From the NCBI GenBank assembly GCA_028876335.1, contig JAGWSG010000120.1:1-40192 (forward strand): a DNA stretch of 40,192 nt, read 5' to 3'. This document shows positions 23,009 through 38,795 of this stretch, one piece after another. The notes under the pieces were generated by a model. It saw nothing but the letters and a program-made list of their open reading frames with translations. It had not been told where the DNA came from and ran no database searches. The translations under genes and the position numbers were made by a program. This DNA comes from Acidobacteriota bacterium. GTDB lineage: Bacteria > Acidobacteriota > Terriglobia > Terriglobales > Acidobacteriaceae. Positions within the stretch are counted from its first letter, which is position 1. Every line of letters starts with the position of its first letter.

Positions 23009-23734
23009 TCAATAGCAACCCGCATATGCTGCAAGGGCTGCCTTATTCGGAATCGTCAGCGTTGAGCCATTGCACATCACCAGCTTTTGACTCTTGAAGC
23101 TCGCCAACGTCCGAGTAACCGTCTCTCGTGACGCTCCAATAAACTCGCCCACTTCCTCATGCGTCATGGAAAACCGCAGACACACTCCCAGGGTCGAGTG
23201 CTCACCATGCTCGCTCCACGACAGCAACAACCGGGCAAGGCGTTCCGGTGCCGATGTGGCAAGTCCCAGTGTCCGCAACTGTTCACACGCCAGACCATAC
23301 TGCCGGCTCAGTTCCACCATCAGTGACTTGTGCAGTTCCGGGTGTCGCACCATAAAGCGAAGAAGATCCGCTCTGCTGATAGGCGCAATCCGTGACGGAT
23401 ACAAAGTCTCCGCCGTCATCTCATAGGGGCATCCGGAAAGCGCCGATGAAAGCCCAAGAACTTCGCCCTTCCTCGCAAGATGCAAACTCAGCCGCTTTCC
23501 ATCTGGAGAGTTGATGGAAAGCTTTACTTCACCCTGTACAACAACAAATACTCCACGAGCTTCTTCGTTTTCCGCAAAAACTGTCGCATGCGACGGGTAA
23601 AAGAGTGGCGCCTCCAAAGATACAAGGTCTCTGGCTGCTTCTGGAGACAGATTCGCGAACACTTCCCGCCTCTGGAAATCTGTTACTTTAGACCTATTGG
23701 TCGTCTTATTGATGCCTGAACCCCTGAATGACAT
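23009..23734 (-). CDS. Crp/Fnr-family transcriptional regulator
   Basis: 241 residues. An N-terminal cyclic-nucleotide-binding-like domain covers about 25-140 (VFAENEEARGVFVVVQGEVKL), then a dimerisation helix and a C-terminal winged helix with recognition segment MTHEEVGEFIGASRETVTRT at about 187-206. There is no N-terminal cysteine cluster, so it is not a classical Fe-S FNR. The phosphate-binding RxxS-type cAMP motif is not evident, so the effector is unknown. GGAGG lies 5 bp before ATG 23734 and overlaps the stop of the STAS gene, showing an operon with translational coupling. It is probably activated or repressed by a small-molecule or redox signal. Confidence 0.85.
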   Translation of the reverse strand: MSFRGSGINKTTNRSKVTDFQRREVFANLSPEAARDLVSLEAPLFYPSHATVFAENEEARGVFVVVQGEVKLSINSPDGKRLSLHLARKGEVLGLSSALSGCPYEMTAETLYPSRIAPISRADLLRFMVRHPELHKSLMVELSRQYGLACEQLRTLGLATSAPERLARLLLSWSEHGEHSTLGVCLRFSMTHEEVGEFIGASRETVTRTLASFKSQKLVMCNGSTLTIPNKAALAAYAGCY

Positions 23735-31417: not shown

Positions 31418-31783
31418 TCACCGCACTTTTGTCTTCGAAACCTTCGCCTCCAAGAATTCACCGAGAGCTGTCGCATTGTTGTGCAGGGCTTCTTTTGAGC
31501 TATAAAGCAGGGTAATATCCCCTTTGCGAGCCGCTTCTGCGAGTGGCATCCACGTTTCGCGATTCGATTCCAATTCTTCGAAATAGCGACGTCGAAACTC
31601 ATTCCATTGGTCGGAAGAAGCGTGATACCAGTTCCGCAGTTCGTTGCTCGGCGCCACGTCCTTGAGCCAGGCCTTCAGGGATAAGGCGTCCTTCTTGATT
31701 CCTCTTGGCCAAAGGCGATCAACTAGAAAGCGCGCTCCATCTGCCGATTCAGCGGGTTCATAGACACGTTTCATACGAATCAT
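31418..31783 (-). CDS. DUF488-family protein (YeaO-like)
   Basis: 121 residues from ATG 31783, which has a perfect AGGAGG-type site 5-6 bp upstream. Family hallmarks are RVYEPAESADGARFLVDRLWPRG near the N-terminus (cut here into shorter signs: VDRLWPRG), LKDVAPSNELRNWY, and FRRRYFEEL. DUF488 proteins of the YeaO group are small cytoplasmic proteins of unknown function, often found near stress, heme or metal genes. It lies 81 bp downstream of the cupin gene on the same strand and may be part of the NO reductase transcript. Confidence 0.85.
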   Translation of the reverse strand: MIRMKRVYEPAESADGARFLVDRLWPRGIKKDALSLKAWLKDVAPSNELRNWYHASSDQWNEFRRRYFEELESNRETWMPLAEAARKGDITLLYSSKEALHNNATALGEFLEAKVSKTKVR

Positions 31784-31864
31784 GGACGCCTCCTGCAGAT
31801 GACGGGTGCCGACCTGTGCATTGACCGGGAAGAGCACGTCAAAAGTCTACCGCCGTTGGCTGGT

Positions 31865-32188
31865 CTACTTTGTCTGCATCTTTATCTGCACGAGAAGCAT
31901 CTTGGTGGCGGTCTTTGCAGCAATGCTATGCGGCAGCATTGGCGGCATGTAGGTGAATGAACCTTGTCGCGCTTGCACCGTTTCAGAACCTAACTGCACT
32001 ATGGCCTCTCCCTCTAGAAAGTAGAGGGTTGCTGGTGTAGGGGCGGAATGCGCTGTCAGTTCCTCTCCGTTTGCGAAAGCGAACAGCGTGATGTTGACAA
32101 AGTCATCTTTGCGTAACACCGTGCTGAGGATCCCTTTTTCAGGAATGCTGATTTCCTGGGCCAAATCAGGAATAAACATATGAGACAT
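31865..32188 (-). CDS. Small cupin-domain protein
   Basis: 107 residues, one cupin barrel. Motif 1 is degenerate (GEELTAHSAPTPATLYFLEG), keeping one His and the terminal Gly; motif 2 (GSFTYMPPMLPHSI) keeps the Pro and His. With His residues in both motifs a metal site is possible but incomplete. AAAGGAT precedes ATG 32188 by about 7 bp. It follows the NO reductase by 73 bp, with a strong hairpin between them, and the pairing cupin-NO reductase suggests a role in the NO or nitrosative response. Such cupins are often annotated only as 'cupin'. Confidence 0.82.
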   Translation of the reverse strand: MSHMFIPDLAQEISIPEKGILSTVLRKDDFVNITLFAFANGEELTAHSAPTPATLYFLEGEAIVQLGSETVQARQGSFTYMPPMLPHSIAAKTATKMLLVQIKMQTK

Positions 32189-32261: not shown

Positions 32262-34538
32262 TTAACGCGCGCTCTCGATCAGCTCTTCAGAAGGCTTCTT
32301 CGAACTTATTTCCTTGGTGCTGTAGGAATGCCCCGTAAGCAATCCGAGGACGAACCAGCCAAGAAGAGCAGCTCCAAGTGCAAAGAGTATGTCACCCGGA
32401 ACTCGCATCCAGCGCAGAGTCTGCATGGTATTCGTTTGCAGGAATTCTGCTGACCGCGCATACCATGTACCCCGTTGAATGGATGCCATGGCCTGCATGA
32501 TGCCGATGGGAAGCATGCTGAGAATCACCATGAAAGTAAGCCCAATGTTGATGCACCAGAATGCAGTCTTCAGCACGCCCTCCTTCCACTTTCGAGCGGG
32601 CTGGAGAACGCGCAGGCAGAAGAGTGTCAGTCCCAGTCCAAGCATTCCGTATACCCCGAAGAGTGCTGTGTGACCATGTACGGGCGTCAGATTCAAGCCC
32701 TGCATATAGTAGAGTGCGACCGGCGGATTGATGAGGAATCCAAAGATTCCCGCTCCCACCAGATTCCAAAAGGCGACGGCGACGAAGAAGAAGATGGGCC
32801 ACTTGTAATTGGCAATCCACGGAGCCTTTTCCGTTGGCTTGGCGAGACGCAGATTTTCCCACGCTTCGAATCCGATCAACGTCAGCGGCACAACTTCCAT
32901 TGCGCTGAACACAGCACCGAGCGCGATGACGGCAGGGCCTGACCCGGCGAAGTACAGATGGTGGAATGTACCGATAATGCCGCCTGATAGGAAGATGGTT
33001 GTCGAGAACAGAACAGCTCGTGTTGCGCTGCGAATTTCAAGCAGCTTGAGCCGCGTGAAGAGGAATGCAATGACGACGGTTGCGAAGACTTCAAAGAACC
33101 CTTCCACCCAGAGGTGAACCACCCACCAGCGCCAGTATTCCGCCGTGACCAGGTTGCTGCGCTGTCCGTACATGAGCCCGGCCGCATAGAAGAGCGGGAT
33201 TGCAACGCTTGAAACCATGAACATGGACAACAGCGAGCGATCTTCAGGGCTGTGCTGAAATGCCGGCTTCAACGCACGCACCATGAGCACGAGCCAGAGC
33301 ACGAGTCCGATGAAGAGAAGTATCTGCCAGAACCGTCCGAGATCGACGTACTCGAAACCTTGGCTTCCGAACCAGAACCACTCGTTGCCGAGCTTCTGCT
33401 GGATACCCAACCACTCGCCAGCCAAAGAACCGCCAACCACAAGCACTAGTGCTACGAACAAAACGTTTACGCCGAGCCGTTGATACTTAGGCTCCCTCCC
33501 GCTGACGGCAGGGCCAACATACAGTCCGGTCGCCAGCCACGACGTGGCTATCCAGAAGATGGCAAGTTGTAAGTGCCAAGTACGGGTGATGGCATAGGGC
33601 AGATACTTGTCGAGTGGAAATCCGTAGAATCCCTGTCCCTCCACGCCATAGTGTGCGGTTAGTACACCCATCAAAATCTGCACACCCCACAAGATAACGA
33701 CGACAAGGAAATATTTGATGGTGGCGCGCTGCGATGGTGTGGGCTGAAGTCCAAGAAAAGGATCGCGCGATGGAAATGGTCCTTTGACGAGTTCTTTCTC
33801 CTGCGAGGAATACCACCAAACCATGCCGCCAATCCCCGCGATAAGACCGACGATGCTAATTACGCTCCAGAGAATAGCGCCAGGTGTCGGCTCGTTGGCG
33901 ATCAGTGGCTCGTGCGGCCAGTTGTTGGTGTAGGTCACATTTGTGCCAGGACGATCCGTACCGGCGGCCCATGCGCTCCACCAGAAGAACTCCGCAAGCT
34001 TGCGCTGCTTCACCGCATCCGTCAGTGCTCCCGGGGGAATTGCGTAATCCTTGTGGCCGTTTGCAAAGATATCGGCGTAATGTTTCTCAAGCTCTGCGAA
34101 TGCGGCTGCGCGATCCACATCGATGACGACCCGGTTGTTTTGCGCATCATAGGTATTCGTGCGTATGTCGCGTATCAGGCGAGCCTTCAACACCGCCTGC
34201 TGGTCCGGGTTGAGTGCAACGAAGTTCGGAGCTCCGTCCCGTTGTGCCCAGTGCTCGAGCAGAAATTCTGATTCGCGATGAATCCAGTCCGCCGTCCAAT
34301 CGGGCGCAACATAGGCGCCGTGCCCCCAAACCGTGCCAATCTCCTGTCCGCCGATCGACTGCCACACTCCTTGCCCATCGGTTATGGACGATCCTGTAAA
34401 GAGAAGTTGTCCGTTGCTTGTGTAGACGTCGGGAAGTGGTGGCGCTGCACTGATCATCTTGCGCCCCACCGCTCCTAAAACGGCGAAGGACGCGATGACG
34501 ACGATGGAAAATGCCAGCCAATATTTCTTATAAGTCAT
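32262..34538 (-). CDS. norB: Quinol-dependent nitric oxide reductase (single-subunit qNOR)
   Basis: 758 residues, the full length of qNOR. It reduces 2 NO to N2O at the inner membrane using quinol. An N-terminal helix and a cytochrome-c-like periplasmic domain without a CXXCH heme motif (about 30-215) precede a 12-helix NorB core. Ligand histidines are visible: His322 (RTWHLQ), His475 (VVHLWVEGFFEVF, with Glu479 and Glu483), the His526-His527 pair (TFHHLYFAG) for the non-heme iron, and His621/His623 (PVHGHTALFG). ATG 34538 has GAGGAA at 6 bp; an upstream ATG at 34592 is not needed. A putative Crp/Fnr operator lies 80-95 bp upstream. The cupin and DUF488 genes follow. Confidence 0.95.
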   Translation of the reverse strand: MTYKKYWLAFSIVVIASFAVLGAVGRKMISAAPPLPDVYTSNGQLLFTGSSITDGQGVWQSIGGQEIGTVWGHGAYVAPDWTADWIHRESEFLLEHWAQRDGAPNFVALNPDQQAVLKARLIRDIRTNTYDAQNNRVVIDVDRAAAFAELEKHYADIFANGHKDYAIPPGALTDAVKQRKLAEFFWWSAWAAGTDRPGTNVTYTNNWPHEPLIANEPTPGAILWSVISIVGLIAGIGGMVWWYSSQEKELVKGPFPSRDPFLGLQPTPSQRATIKYFLVVVILWGVQILMGVLTAHYGVEGQGFYGFPLDKYLPYAITRTWHLQLAIFWIATSWLATGLYVGPAVSGREPKYQRLGVNVLFVALVLVVGGSLAGEWLGIQQKLGNEWFWFGSQGFEYVDLGRFWQILLFIGLVLWLVLMVRALKPAFQHSPEDRSLLSMFMVSSVAIPLFYAAGLMYGQRSNLVTAEYWRWWVVHLWVEGFFEVFATVVIAFLFTRLKLLEIRSATRAVLFSTTIFLSGGIIGTFHHLYFAGSGPAVIALGAVFSAMEVVPLTLIGFEAWENLRLAKPTEKAPWIANYKWPIFFFVAVAFWNLVGAGIFGFLINPPVALYYMQGLNLTPVHGHTALFGVYGMLGLGLTLFCLRVLQPARKWKEGVLKTAFWCINIGLTFMVILSMLPIGIMQAMASIQRGTWYARSAEFLQTNTMQTLRWMRVPGDILFALGAALLGWFVLGLLTGHSYSTKEISSKKPSEELIESAR

Positions 34539-34617
34539 CAGAAGTTCCTCATTTTGTACTGCACAATGGTTTTGCGTGCTTTCATCTGTCACCTTAGGTT
34601 CTGCCGCATTTGCACGC

Positions 34618-34633
34618 AGGGACTTTAGTCACT
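34618..34633 (-). promoter_or_regulatory. Putative Crp/Fnr-type operator before the NO reductase
   Basis: AGGGACTTTAGTCACT on the + strand. It matches AGTAACTTATGTCACT (36847) and AGAGACTTAGGTCACT (37601) at 12 of 16 invariant positions, giving AGNRACTTNNGTCACT with a half-site GTCACT. It lies 80-95 bp before ATG 34538. The TGAC-N4-GTCA-like core resembles NnrR/DNR-type boxes. Confidence 0.65.
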
Positions 34634-34717
34634 CAGCGGCCAAAAGAATTTGAGTTTTGCGAGATGAGATCAGAAGCGCGCACCGAATCTCATAGGCGGG
34701 GCGCCACACAGCGATCG

Positions 34718-36067
34718 CTATGCGGCGTGTGCTTGGACGTTGTGCTGCCAGAACGCCCTGCCCGTGATTAAAGTAAGTGCCATATTGATTGCAAAGACCA
34801 CTACGCCGCTGAGTTCGAGAACGCCGGAAATTGGCAGCGTCTTCCACGCAAATGCCTGAATGCCTTCATACGCCAGCGGCTCAGAGAGTACGCGCAGCGT
34901 GCAGCCAATCTGCAACAGCAGCAAGCTCAGGAGCATTAGTCGTTTGCTGAAGAGGTTGTAGATGCCGGAGAAGTGAGGCAGAATTCTGGGCCCGATAGTG
35001 AATACCATCGTGGCCGCAAAGCCTACAGTCAACGCATGACGCGAAGCTCCCCAGATACCGCCGTGTACATCGGCAAAAGCAGCCCACACTCCCAGGCAGC
35101 CTGCAATCACGAGCCAGACGTAGGAAAGACGCGCGAAGACCGGAAAGCTGCGATGGATTCCCTGCGTCTTGGCGGGTCCGTGCGGTTTTTGCGTCAGGTG
35201 CAACGCCCACCCCATGCTGAGTGCGCTCAGGAGAAGAAGTATAGTTGCCGTTTGCGTCCAGCCTGCAATCCCGCAAATGACGCCTGTGATGTCGAGGGCC
35301 AGAGATGCTCCGAAAACTTTCGCATTGGGCTTTGCGATTGCAAGGAAAGTCGGGAACCAGCGCGCAGAAAATCCCCATACGACCGGAACCAGAAAGCCCC
35401 AGGCAAGCAGTAAAAGGAATATCTGGTCGAGAGCATGCGGAAACGCGCGCGAAGTTCCCCCCAAAGCGAGACGCATGCACACAACAAAGTTGAAAATGAC
35501 GAGCGCCGCCAGACCTGCTGTACTTACCAGGACTGAAACCATCCAAAGTTCCATGCGAGCTTTGGTGCGTGAGTCTCCAATTTGTTCAGGCATCTTGTGG
35601 TGCGAGGACGCCTTGAGGAAGAGCACCAGCGCAATCAATTCGAAAGTGGAGGAGACAGCGAAGAGCATACGCCAGTGCCAACCATATATATCGGCCGTCC
35701 AGCGCATGGCCACGCCTGAGGTCCATAGCGCGAAGCTCGTCAGAGGCACCCAAAGAACAGAGCGACTCCGCGCCGGCTGCGAGTAGAAACCGATGCCCAG
35801 AACAAAACTCCCAATCCAGCCGAAGACCTGTGCATGGCCGTGTCCCTGGATCCAGGCCGCGGGAAGATTTCCGAGTCCGTGATTGGTGCTGATTGCAAGC
35901 AGGTTTGAGAAGCCCAGAACCGTGCCGGGCAGTGCCATGAAAAAGAGCCCTGCAAAGATCCACGCGCGCAACACAAGACTCTTGTGGCGCTCGACGCTGG
36001 CCATGGATTCCGCAGTGCGCTCCACTGGCAGGACAACCAGTCGTTTTGTATGAGCTATGGATGTCAC
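34718..36067 (-). CDS. nnrS: NnrS-family heme/copper membrane protein
   Basis: 449 residues with about 12 membrane segments. The NnrS signature is present: an early GHGHAQVFGWIGSFVLGIGF block with His residues for heme or copper, and the later RHALTVGFAATMVFTIGPRILPHFSG block. NnrS relieves nitrosative stress, probably by protecting from iron-dinitrosyl complexes, and occurs with NO reductases. The start GTG (36067) overlaps the stop of the RIC gene as GTGA, and GGAGGGAGAGG sits directly upstream, so the two are translationally coupled. Downstream, a 179-bp gap separates it from the NO reductase start, which has its own operator. Confidence 0.9.
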   Translation of the reverse strand: MTSIAHTKRLVVLPVERTAESMASVERHKSLVLRAWIFAGLFFMALPGTVLGFSNLLAISTNHGLGNLPAAWIQGHGHAQVFGWIGSFVLGIGFYSQPARSRSVLWVPLTSFALWTSGVAMRWTADIYGWHWRMLFAVSSTFELIALVLFLKASSHHKMPEQIGDSRTKARMELWMVSVLVSTAGLAALVIFNFVVCMRLALGGTSRAFPHALDQIFLLLLAWGFLVPVVWGFSARWFPTFLAIAKPNAKVFGASLALDITGVICGIAGWTQTATILLLLSALSMGWALHLTQKPHGPAKTQGIHRSFPVFARLSYVWLVIAGCLGVWAAFADVHGGIWGASRHALTVGFAATMVFTIGPRILPHFSGIYNLFSKRLMLLSLLLLQIGCTLRVLSEPLAYEGIQAFAWKTLPISGVLELSGVVVFAINMALTLITGRAFWQHNVQAHAA

Positions 36068-36801
36068 CTCTCCCTCCTGTACTCCGGTTTCGCTTCAAGT
36101 GCGATTGCGCGCGGAAAGAGGATCTCGTCTTCCAGATACACATGTCGGCACAGGTCCTGCTCGAAGGCCTGAAGCCCGGCAAACAGCGCCTTGTGCGTAG
36201 TACACGCCCAATCGGGCAGGGCAAAATTGTCGGTCAGCTGGCGCAATTCAATAAAAATAATGTTGGCTTGGTCGTGCTCGCGCATCATCATTGCGATAGG
36301 TTGCGCGACCGAGCGGAAACAGACATGCTCAGCGGCGCCGCCAAAGTCAATCTGCTCTTCAAGCCGCATCACATACGGAAAGAGAATCTGTTCTTCCTTT
36401 TCGATGTGAGCGAGCAGTTCGTCGCGAAGAGTAGCAACAAGTTCGGACACTTTCTTGAGTTCGGATGCCTGGTCGCCTCGCTTTTCGGCGAGCTTCTGCG
36501 CCATTGCAGCAAGACCCGGTATTTCTCTCCTCACCTTGCTGTGATGCACACGCACAATATGTTGAATGAGACGCGCTGTGCTCATCTGCAGTGGGTCAGG
36601 AGTTCCGTCGCCGCGCTCGCTGGCTTCACCGTCAGAGAGGCGCTCAAGAACCTGATCGACAGATAGCTGCATCTCTGCGCAGGCTTGTTCAAGGGGCATT
36701 TCAGCCAGGCCGCACAGGTCGAGCTCGAATCGCTGCAGGATGGCTGCAGCTGAAGATTGTTGCGCGATAATTTCACGAATAGACTGAGTTCCGGTGGCCA
36801 T
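36064..36801 (-). CDS. ric: RIC/YtfE-like di-iron protein (iron-sulfur cluster repair)
   Basis: 245 residues. A ScdA_N/DUF542-like N-terminal domain covers about 5-60 and a hemerythrin-like four-helix bundle about 75-235. Predicted di-iron ligands are His81, His86/87, His132, Glu136, His176, His220 and Glu224. RIC/YtfE/ScdA proteins repair Fe-S centres after NO or oxidative damage. The usual Cys-Cys-Gly-Gly of the N-terminal domain is replaced: only one cysteine remains (Cys30 in LDLCGLAE), with another at 41. It is coupled to nnrS by a 4-bp overlap. An operator-like palindrome lies 46-61 bp before ATG 36801, and another palindrome, CCCTAC-GGAA-GTAGGG, is at 36821-36836. Confidence 0.85.
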   Translation of the reverse strand: MATGTQSIREIIAQQSSAAAILQRFELDLCGLAEMPLEQACAEMQLSVDQVLERLSDGEASERGDGTPDPLQMSTARLIQHIVRVHHSKVRREIPGLAAMAQKLAEKRGDQASELKKVSELVATLRDELLAHIEKEEQILFPYVMRLEEQIDFGGAAEHVCFRSVAQPIAMMMREHDQANIIFIELRQLTDNFALPDWACTTHKALFAGLQAFEQDLCRHVYLEDEILFPRAIALEAKPEYRRER

Positions 36802-36820
36802 ACATCATCTCCACCTGCAA

Positions 36821-36836
36821 CCCTACGGAAGTAGGG
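36821..36836. promoter_or_regulatory. Short palindrome in the RIC leader
   Basis: CCCTAC-GGAA-GTAGGG, perfect 6-bp arms, between the Crp/Fnr-like site and the RIC start codon (20-35 bp upstream of ATG). A similar CTACC-AA-GGTAG lies beside the third operator (37591-37602). It may be a second operator or an RNA hairpin. Confidence 0.35.
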
Positions 36837-36846
36837 ATTTTCGCTC

Positions 36847-36862
36847 AGTAACTTATGTCACT
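36847..36862 (-). promoter_or_regulatory. Putative Crp/Fnr-type operator before RIC-nnrS
   Basis: AGTAACTTATGTCACT on the + strand, the most symmetrical copy (AGTAAC against GTCACT, i.e. AGTGAC). It lies 46-61 bp before the RIC start codon and just behind the Crp/Fnr gene stop, where a class II activation site would be placed. Confidence 0.65.
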
Positions 36863-36876
36863 CAGAGGCGAAATTA

Positions 36877-37581
36877 TCATGAGGCATTTTCAAGAAGAGC
36901 AGTGAGGCCCTTCAAATCCTTCACCACAATTTGCCTTGCGTCCACTTCAAGCAGTCCTTCGGCCTGGAGCCTCATTAGGTTGCGCGAAATAAGTTCGCGC
37001 ACCGTCCCAAGTTGATGAGCCAGTTCCTGATGCGTAGCTGGAAGAAGAAACTCGATGCCTCGGTCCGTGCTCGTTCCTTCGTTCTGTGCCAGTTTCACAA
37101 GCACCGCAATGAGCCGCTGGCGAATGGTGGTGAACGAGAGTTCCTCAATGATCCCCACCAGGCGACGAAGTCGGGCGCCCACGACCGAAAGCACCTTCAG
37201 TGGCACCTCGGGATGCTCGACGCAGAAAGCGTGAAAATCTCGACGTGAGATGAAGGCAATCTCGGTGTTTTCAATTGCGGCAGCAGACGCCGGATAGGGC
37301 CCGCCGTCGAAGACGGGCAGCTCAGCCACCGACTCGCCGGGAACGTTGACCGCAAGTACCTGCTCACGCCCGCTGGCCGAAGTCTTGAAGATGCGCACCT
37401 TGCCGCTGGCAATAATGTGCAACCCGCTGCACGGCTCTCCTTCAGAGAACAGCAGCTCACCATCAGTGAAAATTTTGCGCACGGTGCGCGAAGCCAGCAA
37501 CTGTAGCTCAGGCTGCGAAAGGCCTGCCAGAAGAGCAGCCTTTTGCAGTACAGCAGCAAAGTCGATACGAGGAGAAGCCAC
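36877..37581 (-). CDS. Crp/Fnr-family regulator, likely NO-responsive (DNR/NnrR-like)
   Basis: 234 residues. A cNMP-binding-like sensor domain covers about 20-130 (LLFSEGEPCSGLHIIASGKV), then a long dimer helix and a winged helix-turn-helix with recognition segment ATHQELAHQLGTVRELISRN at about 180-200. There are no FNR-type cysteine ligands. Location next to RIC, nnrS, qNOR and a radical SAM gene argues for a DNR/NnrR-like NO sensor, which normally uses heme. The start is a GTG at 37581 with a poor ribosome site; a 16-bp operator copy lies 20-35 bp upstream of it, so autoregulation is plausible. Low expression may be intended. Confidence 0.85.
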   Translation of the reverse strand: MASPRIDFAAVLQKAALLAGLSQPELQLLASRTVRKIFTDGELLFSEGEPCSGLHIIASGKVRIFKTSASGREQVLAVNVPGESVAELPVFDGGPYPASAAAIENTEIAFISRRDFHAFCVEHPEVPLKVLSVVGARLRRLVGIIEELSFTTIRQRLIAVLVKLAQNEGTSTDRGIEFLLPATHQELAHQLGTVRELISRNLMRLQAEGLLEVDARQIVVKDLKGLTALLENAS

Positions 37582-37600
37582 GGTGGAATTCTACCAAGGT

Positions 37601-37616
37601 AGAGACTTAGGTCACT
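37601..37616. promoter_or_regulatory. Putative Crp/Fnr-type operator in the divergent regulator/radical SAM promoter
   Basis: AGAGACTTAGGTCACT, the third copy of the shared motif. It is 20-35 bp before the regulator's GTG (minus) and 34-49 bp before the radical SAM ATG (plus), so one site could control both genes. It is partly overlapped by the small palindrome CTACC-AA-GGTAG (37591-37602). Confidence 0.6.
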
Positions 37617-37649
37617 GCCGCCCGCGCGGTTTCGCGGTGTCATTATTGC

Positions 37650-38795
37650 ATGAACCCGCAAATACGAACTGTCGACTTCGACGAAAAGCCATTCATTGCA
37701 ATCTGGGAAGTGACCCAGGCATGCGATCTGGCATGCGTTCATTGCCGCGCCTCTGCTCAGCCCAACCGCCATCCGCTCGAACTGACAACGGAAGAAGGCA
37801 AGAACCTGATCAATCAGATCGCCGAAATGGAGGTTCCCGTTTTTGTGCTGACAGGCGGCGATCCAATCAAGCGGCCTGACCTCTTCGAACTCATCCGTCA
37901 TGCCTGCGAGAGAAATGTTCGTGTTTCGCTTACGCCGAGCGCGACTCCGCTGCTTACGCGGGAGATTGTTGTGCGGCTCAAGGAGGCGGGCCTTGCCAGG
38001 TTGGCTGTCAGTCTCGACGGTGCAAGCGCTGAAACACATGATGCATTCCGCGGCATGTCCGGATCTTTTGCCCGCACGCTCAACGCGGTGCAATGGGCCA
38101 ATGAAGTCGGTCTGCCGGTGCAGATCAATACCACGTTCAGCCGTCGCAATATCGGTGAGATCGATGCGATTGTCACACTGATGGAAAGCCTGCGCATCAC
38201 GCTCTGGAGTGTCTTTTTCCTCGTGCCCACGGGCCGCGGCAAGCTGAATGACCTGCTCAGCGGCGATGAGTTCGAACAGATATTCGCCAGACTGCGGCAG
38301 CTTTCCCGGACATCGAGTTTCGACATCAAAACAACCGAGGCACAACACTACCGGCGTTATTTGCTGCAACAGCAGGTAGCCGAGAGGACATCGGGCATTC
38401 ATGACATAGCTGCGGATAAGGTTACCGATGCCATCGGCAGAGCTCCGCGTGGTCTTAACGACGGCAAGGGCTTCGTCTTTATCTCACATACGGGCGAAGT
38501 GTTCCCGAGCGGATTTCTACCAGTCACTGCGGGCAACATTCGTACGCAGTCATTGAGTGCCATTTATCGCGACTCGCCGTTGTTCAGGAATTTGAGGGAT
38601 ACGTCAAAGCTGGAAGGAAAGTGTGGCGCCTGCGAATTCAAGAAAATCTGCGGTGGCTCACGCGCAAGGGCATATGCACTCTCAGGCAATCCTCATGCTG
38701 AAGAACCCTGCTGCGCCTACATCCCCCCTGGTTATGTGCTTCCTCCGCGGGGTTTGAAAAGCGTTACAAATCTTCATGTGCTCCAAGGAATCTGA
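37650..38795 (+). CDS. Radical SAM/SPASM protein (TIGR04053-like, AhbD/NirJ relatives)
   Basis: 381 residues. The radical SAM cluster motif C25-x3-C29-x2-C32 (TQACDLACVHCRASAQP) is followed by a TGGDPIKRPD loop (SAM binding) and SPSATPLLT-like core strands. A C-terminal SPASM-type region (about 320-365) has GKCGACEFKKICGGSRARAY and the later CC pair in EEPCCAYIPPG, for an auxiliary Fe-S cluster. The sequence style matches the TIGR04053 group, close to heme-pathway enzymes AhbC/AhbD and NirJ. Given the neighbours (heme-containing qNOR, NnrS, Crp/Fnr) a role in heme or peptide-cofactor maturation is possible, but unproved. Shares an operator region with the divergent regulator. Confidence 0.88.
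   Translation: MNPQIRTVDFDEKPFIAIWEVTQACDLACVHCRASAQPNRHPLELTTEEGKNLINQIAEMEVPVFVLTGGDPIKRPDLFELIRHACERNVRVSLTPSATPLLTREIVVRLKEAGLARLAVSLDGASAETHDAFRGMSGSFARTLNAVQWANEVGLPVQINTTFSRRNIGEIDAIVTLMESLRITLWSVFFLVPTGRGKLNDLLSGDEFEQIFARLRQLSRTSSFDIKTTEAQHYRRYLLQQQVAERTSGIHDIAADKVTDAIGRAPRGLNDGKGFVFISHTGEVFPSGFLPVTAGNIRTQSLSAIYRDSPLFRNLRDTSKLEGKCGACEFKKICGGSRARAYALSGNPHAEEPCCAYIPPGYVLPPRGLKSVTNLHVLQGI

Follow-up and report, generated by a model that had tools for sequence, protein, structure and literature searches.

A 16-bp palindrome as the likely switch for nitric oxide defence genes in an acidobacterium

Introduction

Which regulator controls the nitric oxide (NO) defence genes that lie side by side in an Acidobacteriota bacterium, and through which DNA element? 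The stretch analysed here (the window) comprises 40,192 nucleotides, positions 1 to 40,192 of contig JAGWSG010000120.1 in GenBank assembly GCA_028876335.1. It carries a gene for a quinol-type nitric oxide reductase (qNOR), an operon for the di-iron protein RIC and an NnrS-like membrane protein, a gene for a Crp/Fnr-family regulator (here called crp), and a divergent radical SAM gene (Table 1). A sequence-only reading of the window had pointed to a 16-bp near-palindrome at three places of this locus and had predicted that the local Crp/Fnr protein controls all four transcripts, its own included. Acidobacteria are abundant in soils, and their handling of NO made by neighbours bears on soil nitrous oxide (N2O).

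In this study, we followed the palindrome through this genome and through related genomes. It is the likely switch for the NO-defence genes. The explanation that we favour, with high confidence, is that the palindrome serves as the operator for the Crp/Fnr protein of gene 36877-37581, which would act as an NO-responsive class II activator of these genes. The active regulator, most likely upon NO, would bind the palindrome near -41.5 and would activate qNOR, RIC-nnrS, a second RIC (RIC2) and a polyferredoxin gene as a class II activator. At the site shared by crp and the radical SAM gene, it would probably activate the radical SAM gene and keep its own production in check by sitting on the crp promoter. 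The comparison of genomes that carries this explanation covers where the predicted sites lie, how well they are conserved, whether they go with the regulator gene and how constant their distance to a TAnnnT hexamer is.

Sites in the window and in the genome

The three sites lie exactly where the sequence-only reading had placed them, all three are intergenic, and they are identical at 12 of 16 positions, as it had stated. In the order 34618, 36847 and 37601, they are AGGGACTTTAGTCACT, AGTAACTTATGTCACT and AGAGACTTAGGTCACT. In the whole 3.8-Mb genome (236 contigs), the pattern of that reading matched exactly at these three sites only. When up to two mismatches were allowed, the window held eight matches against a mean of 1.29 in shuffled sequence, and none of 100 shuffles reached eight; six of the eight were the three sites counted on both strands. 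A refined pattern, GTGACNWAAGTYNCW, was drawn up after inspection of the sites of relatives. It had five exact matches in the genome and none with the reversed control. The five places were the three window sites, the second RIC (contig C192) and a gene for a polyferredoxin-type 4Fe-4S membrane protein (C15). By this comparison, the window sites belong to a conserved putative operator, wGTGAC-NWAA-GTYNCT.

Conservation upstream of NO-defence genes

A matrix built from the five sites of this genome was scanned over loci that had been fetched by alignment of the regulator, with the motif left out of the selection (the best 80 of 503; 853,031 bases). Several loci came from contigs also present in the genome set (the G set), and some genomes were represented twice. 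The searched gene set was not blind, as hcp, polyferredoxin and RIC2 were added after motif matches in relatives pointed there. The scan gave 186 matches, against a mean of 1.5 (maximum 10) for 200 permuted palindromic matrices, and 169 of the 186 had a searched gene starting no more than 300 bp downstream. At the cut-off for site presence, a score of 15, a site was found upstream of RIC in 68 of 69 cases, of hcp in 12 of 12, of the radical SAM gene in 37 of 39 and of qNOR in 19 of 23. The counts were 56 of 79 for orthologues of crp (the 80th row is a paralogue of 26% identity), 13 of 28 for polyferredoxin, 11 of 42 for nnrS, 3 of 17 for the cupin gene and 0 of 8 for the DUF488 gene. Where nnrS lacked a site (31 genes), RIC lay directly ahead of it on the same strand in 30 cases. 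In dozens of relatives, these genes are again preceded by this predicted operator. Two of the loci belong to named strains: Occallatibacter savannae AB23 (L289), with sites at crp, RIC and polyferredoxin, and Acidipila rosea DSM 103428 (L319), with one site between crp and RIC. Both the enrichment at NO genes and the conservation upstream of orthologues, by which the sequence-only reading had proposed to judge the motif, were borne out in this set. The predicted regulon also extends past the window, to RIC2 and polyferredoxin in this genome and to hcp and a lactate dehydrogenase in relatives.

Seventeen matches were left unassigned, and five of them preceded a lactate/malate dehydrogenase family gene (L260 8934, L267 6458, L271 8935, L273 7345 and L279 8935). 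In all five loci, TAnnnT stood at offset 37, the offset being the number of bases from the site start to TAnnnT. This operator recalls the NO-inducible lactate dehydrogenase described for Staphylococcus aureus (PMC4601167). Single further sites were seen near an MFS transporter (L301 10834), near a DUF438-hemerythrin-PAS protein (L261 1207), near an FmdE protein opposite a RIC (L155 2575), and at a MobB/MobA-type fusion (L170 2591), where TAnnnT at offset 37 faces the fusion gene.

Promoter geometry at the activated genes

Distinct promoters were aligned by their site (n = 122: RIC 65, qNOR 19, polyferredoxin 13, hcp 12, nnrS 11 and cupin 2). TAnnnT was found at offset 37 in 86 and at offset 38 in 12 of them (98/122 together), and only seven times at all remaining offsets from 16 to 59 combined. 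The offset was 37 at qNOR (TAAGGT), RIC (TAGGGT), polyferredoxin (TAGATT) and RIC2 (TACCTT) of this genome. When the first T of TAnnnT is set at -12, the centre of the site falls at -41.5. With start sites taken from TAnnnT in this way, the operator centre agrees with the class II position of CRP and FNR; class II FNR sites are described as centred at -41.5 and overlapping the -35 region (PMC7713065). In 83 promoters with TAnnnT at offset 37 and enough flanking sequence, a distal GTGAC occurred 76 times and a proximal GTCAC 8 times, with CTG at -35 to -33. The predicted sites at qNOR and RIC-nnrS are thus at the class II activator position, and the 16-bp operator together with the fixed TAnnnT offers a ready predictor of the acidobacterial NO regulon.

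The promoters of related genomes are not independent, and the binomial p value of the offset test is not to be taken literally. Together with the lack of genome-wide enrichment of loose pattern forms described below, this would suit a similarity of sites that is a chance or shared-ancestry echo without function. But several unrelated gene classes agree on one site and one spacing, far above the permuted matrices, which argues that the spacing is functional, and we give such an echo hardly any credence. The sites could also be repressor operators relieved by NO, after the logic of NsrR, and at crp the site does overlap the promoter core. In six gene classes (the cupin class with only two promoters), however, a site near -41.5 with a fixed TAnnnT corresponds to the geometry of a class II activator as described in PMC7713065, and relief of repression appears very improbable as the general mode. 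Activation by the linked regulator is the reading that we keep for these genes.

Occurrence of the site with the regulator gene

Of 297 genomes sampled across the phylum, this one among them, 23 had an orthologue of the regulator at E 1e-45. The genus is represented by 36 genomes. Among them, 23 have a close regulator orthologue, with 89 refined-pattern sites in total, against 3 in the other 13 (Mann-Whitney p 8e-7), while a reversed control pattern gave 22 and 13 matches in the same two groups, which is no difference. One of the three sites in the orthologue-less genomes lies before hcp in a 65%-complete genome, G021.

The presence of the site was also followed at 59 RIC matches in 60 genomes, own included. 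All 37 same-genus RIC genes with the regulator in the genome had the site (36 with a score of at least 15 and one with 14.9), and all 37 still scored at least 12 when the RIC sites were held out of the matrix. The 7 RIC genes from genomes that lack an orthologue at E 1e-45 all stayed below 15, with a best score of 5.0. In other genera, one half of the site has often drifted to ATGAC. These results indicate that the site at RIC follows the regulator gene, in line with the link between motif and local Crp/Fnr protein drawn in the sequence-only reading.

The crp and radical SAM intergenic region

One site is common to crp and the divergent radical SAM gene. A -10-like hexamer was found at most 24 bases after the site in 45 of 55 distinct crp promoters; 43 of them had a GTG or ATG 12 or 13 bases beyond the first T of the hexamer. 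Because this codon sits at the predicted +1, the crp transcript is probably leaderless. The hexamer was 20-23 bases from the site start in a close group of promoters and 30-33 in a distant group, and a class II promoter for crp was rejected. The site covers the crp promoter and therefore suggests autorepression, that is, a regulator that represses its own promoter. On the other side, 30 of 37 promoters had a T....T placed 12 bases ahead of the radical SAM ATG, which is compatible with a leaderless transcript at about class II spacing.

Observations against the assignment

Several observations weigh against control of these genes by the linked regulator. Promoters of the radical SAM gene had TAnnnT at the class II offset of 37 in 0 of 37 cases, and the polarity of their site was reversed, with a distal GTGAC in 1 of 37 versus the 76 of 83 of the activated set. 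For these two reasons, we consider the radical SAM gene the least secure target. Of 79 crp orthologues, 23 lack the upstream site. Genome-wide, the pattern of the sequence-only reading was not enriched with up to one mismatch (10 matches versus 15 for the reversed pattern), and the refined pattern at one mismatch did no better than its control (46 versus 80). One-mismatch forms of the motif, not being above the reversed control, were dropped as a genome-wide regulon finder.

The tracking between site and regulator gene has its own counterpoints. RIC was present in 22 of the 23 genus genomes with crp and in none of the 13 without, so that few sites in the crp-less genomes are partly to be expected. 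Their value as a plain negative control is weakened for this reason, and they were supplemented by the 7 RIC genes without an orthologue. Two of those 7 matched a relaxed pattern, each through a palindrome of the form ATGAC-N4-GTCAT. In genomes with a distant orthologue there were 15 RIC genes, of which only 4 scored at least 15 and 11 matched the relaxed pattern. The two palindromes in the orthologue-less genomes, upstream of RIC in L220 (G040) and L219 (G049), may perhaps serve a different Crp/Fnr protein.

It is also conceivable that another Crp/Fnr protein of the genome uses the sites and that the linked gene is a mere neighbour. The genome has seven HTH_Crp_2 matches, six of them over the cut-off, and three of these other proteins, one of them encoded in the window, likewise have R-E at the contact positions of the recognition helix. 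But the RIC site follows the linked orthologue (37/37 with it and 0/7 without), the regulator's relatives in other genera likewise have sites next to RIC, and the three paralogues have T, not S, before the last Arg of the helix. We consider a paralogue quite improbable as the user of the sites and retain the linked regulator. As paralogues have the same R-E, the recognition helix alone was rejected as a means of assigning the regulator. The second Crp/Fnr gene in the window has its helix-turn-helix at about 23024-23245 on the minus strand, in an open frame of 241 aa with the helix GASRETVTRTL.

Control of all four transcripts by the local Crp/Fnr protein, as originally predicted, is supported, with refinements. 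The promoters of qNOR and RIC-nnrS have the geometry of activation, the radical SAM gene is ambiguous, and at crp the layout makes repression very likely.

The regulator and related systems

The regulator belongs to the Crp/Fnr superfamily by its matches to PF00027 (81.5 bits) and PF13545 (59.1 bits), both over the cut-off. Its predicted structure (pLDDT 92.3) has fold matches to CRP and DNR. TM-scores by query length ranged from 0.38 to 0.62 among the 50 fold matches listed; DNR (3dkw) was the highest of these with 0.62, followed by P. gingivalis HcpR (9day) with 0.61 and a sequence match of 38.4 bits. The closest named homologue among the 120 matches listed, where the 8000 best word-sharing candidates were scored, is from a Terracidiphilus metagenome-assembled genome and is 97% identical, which suggests an acidobacterium of this group. 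The helix core GTVRE(L/V)(I/V)SR is kept in most homologues, the exceptions being an A in place of S (L076/L077) and a D in place of E (L072).

According to Rodionov et al. (2005), R180 correlates with G3 and E181 with A6 (PMC1274295). Since the helix R-E-x-x-S-R of our regulator fits this rule, a CRP-like outer G is to be expected in its site. The VRELISR helix and the GTGA of the site correspond to the HcpR1 type of Desulfovibrio. The half-site combines the CRP register (GTGA-N6-TCAC) with the inner C of the FNR/DNR type, as in TTGAC-type sites; it is not the TTGAT or TTGAC of DNR/NnrR, the distal half being GTGAC in most of the 83 promoters above. The sequence-only reading was right that the outer bases differ from the FNR and DNR boxes and missed the CRP register that explains them.

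Crp/Fnr regulons for NO with several motif types are already known (PMC1274295; for Desulfovibrio HcpR1, PMC5701242). HcpR1 of Desulfovibrio is alike in being a Crp/Fnr protein with R, E and R at the helix contacts and the GTGA-N6-TCAC register, in targeting its own promoter and in having a nitrosative-stress regulon (PMC1274295, PMC5701242). By motif and helix, it differs in its site, TGTGA-N6-TCACA there and a GTGAC half-site here, with qNOR, RIC and the radical SAM gene as the predicted targets in our case. DNR/NnrR and the HcpR1 proteins of other delta-proteobacteria (TTGAC-N4-GTCAA) share the NO-responsive control of NO reductase or hcp and the inner GAC-N4-GTC, whereas the third position is G here and T there. 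The Arg of our regulator stands where delta-proteobacterial HcpR1 proteins have Ser or Pro, according to PMC1274295.

CRP, GlxR and M. tuberculosis CRP are the best sequence relatives in the PDB and share the GTGA-N6-TCAC core. In the CRP barrel, the Arg-Thr/Ser stretch (GPRTSSA) binds the phosphate of cyclic AMP (cAMP). The GPRTSSA of M. tuberculosis CRP aligns with GPYPASA in our regulator, and the NCBIfam CRP model gave 73.8 bits at a cut-off of 266, which speaks against a cAMP receptor. FNR has an N-terminal cysteine cluster for [4Fe-4S]. Our regulator has only Cys51 and Cys120, no such cluster and a different half-site, and it reached 56.3 bits with the NCBIfam Fnr model at a cut-off of 228; the likeness to FNR lies in the class II position of the site. 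The kind of system is therefore known (HcpR/DNR-like), while in the literature searched we found no paper on an acidobacterial NO regulon, on this regulator subfamily or on this operator.

Signal and physiological role

The content of the regulon points to NO as the most likely signal, as NO-tied genes (qNOR, RIC, Hcp, NnrS-like) make up most of it. The signal could instead be low oxygen, nitrite, redox or thiol stress and not NO itself. Among 22 aligned homologues, Cys51 and Cys120 are conserved in 21 and His123 in 18, and these residues might form part of a sensor based on a thiol, a metal or heme; in addition, a lactate dehydrogenase gene is preceded by the site in five loci. Set against this are the NO-tied content and a regulator without an FNR-type cysteine cluster, and we regard such a signal as unlikely, though worth keeping in mind. 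If NO is the signal, Cys51, Cys120 and His123 are candidate residues for heme-based NO sensing.

Models of NirK and NarG matched none of 23 same-genus genomes (own and G001-G022, some of them incomplete; NirS was not searched), so that detoxification is likelier than denitrification. In agreement with this, some acidobacterial strains of subdivisions 1 and 3 are reported to have NO reductases without a dissimilatory nitrate or nitrite reductase (PMC5900883). A supply of heme to qNOR by the radical SAM protein is a guess. In a wider and speculative proposal, which has perhaps a modest chance of being right, a distinct acidobacterial subfamily of NO-responsive Crp/Fnr proteins would read a CRP/DNR hybrid operator and sense NO through Cys51-Cys120-His123, and a leaderless divergent promoter would couple NO defence to an anaerobic, heme-b-synthase-like radical SAM enzyme that supplies qNOR with heme.

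Genes of the locus

The features of the locus are collected in Table 1.

Table 1. Genes, putative operators and predicted -10 elements of the locus, in window coordinates.
Feature	Positions	Strand	Remarks
DUF488 protein	31418..31837	-	downstream of cupin
Small cupin	31865..32188	-	just downstream of qNOR, same strand
Quinol-type nitric oxide reductase qNOR/NorZ	32262..34538	-	PF22085 and COX1
qNOR predicted -10 TAAGGT	34591..34596	-	37 bases from site start
qNOR operator	34618..34633	-	AGTGACTAAAGTCCCT read towards qNOR; centre at predicted -41.5
NnrS-like membrane protein	34718..36067	-	start overlaps RIC stop codon
RIC (YtfE/ScdA-type di-iron protein)	36064..36801	-	TIGR03652 188.6 bits (under cut-off 204.7); Hemerythrin PF01814 over cut-off
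RIC-nnrS predicted -10 TAGGGT	36820..36825	-	37 bases from site start
RIC-nnrS operon operator	36847..36862	-	AGTGACATAAGTTACT read towards RIC
Crp/Fnr-family regulator	36877..37581	-	recognition helix GTVRELISR; PF00027, PF13545
crp predicted -10 TAGAAT	37588..37593	-	GTG start (37581) 12 nt after first T; predicted leaderless
Operator common to crp and radical SAM gene	37601..37616	.	lies between both genes
Radical SAM predicted -10 TGTCAT, weak	37638..37643	+	ATG 12 nt after first T; predicted leaderless
TIGR04053 radical SAM/SPASM protein	37650..38795	+	family model match

The listing of open reading frames begins qNOR at GTG 34592. As this codon falls inside the predicted -10 element, ATG 34538 is the likely start. 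The NnrS-like protein had no Pfam or NCBIfam match, and its name comes from the sequence-only reading. The second-best model for the radical SAM protein was heme b synthase AhbD (362.7 bits, under the cut-off of 500). A search of 5.39 million papers found none naming TIGR04053, and the family gains a genomic context here.

The RIC of the window has only one of the paired ScdA_N cysteines (LCG; 28.1 bits, under the cut-off of 32.5), whereas both are present in RIC2 (CCG; 72.6 bits). In several loci, qNOR is followed by a small cupin gene and often by a DUF488 gene (window 31418-32188, L298 and L305). The cupin is a possible member of the regulon, judged from its sites in relatives; two of the three cases with an own operator are distinct and have TAnnnT at offset 37. 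The DUF488 gene would at best be carried along in the qNOR operon. It was dropped as a member with its own operator, as none of 8 had a site and, at the lone adjacent site (L172), TAnnnT points to the divergent gene. Split matches to qNOR were seen twice, one with an internal TGA (G034:C27:33482-35737) and one as two adjoining matches (G016:C64:5272-7345).

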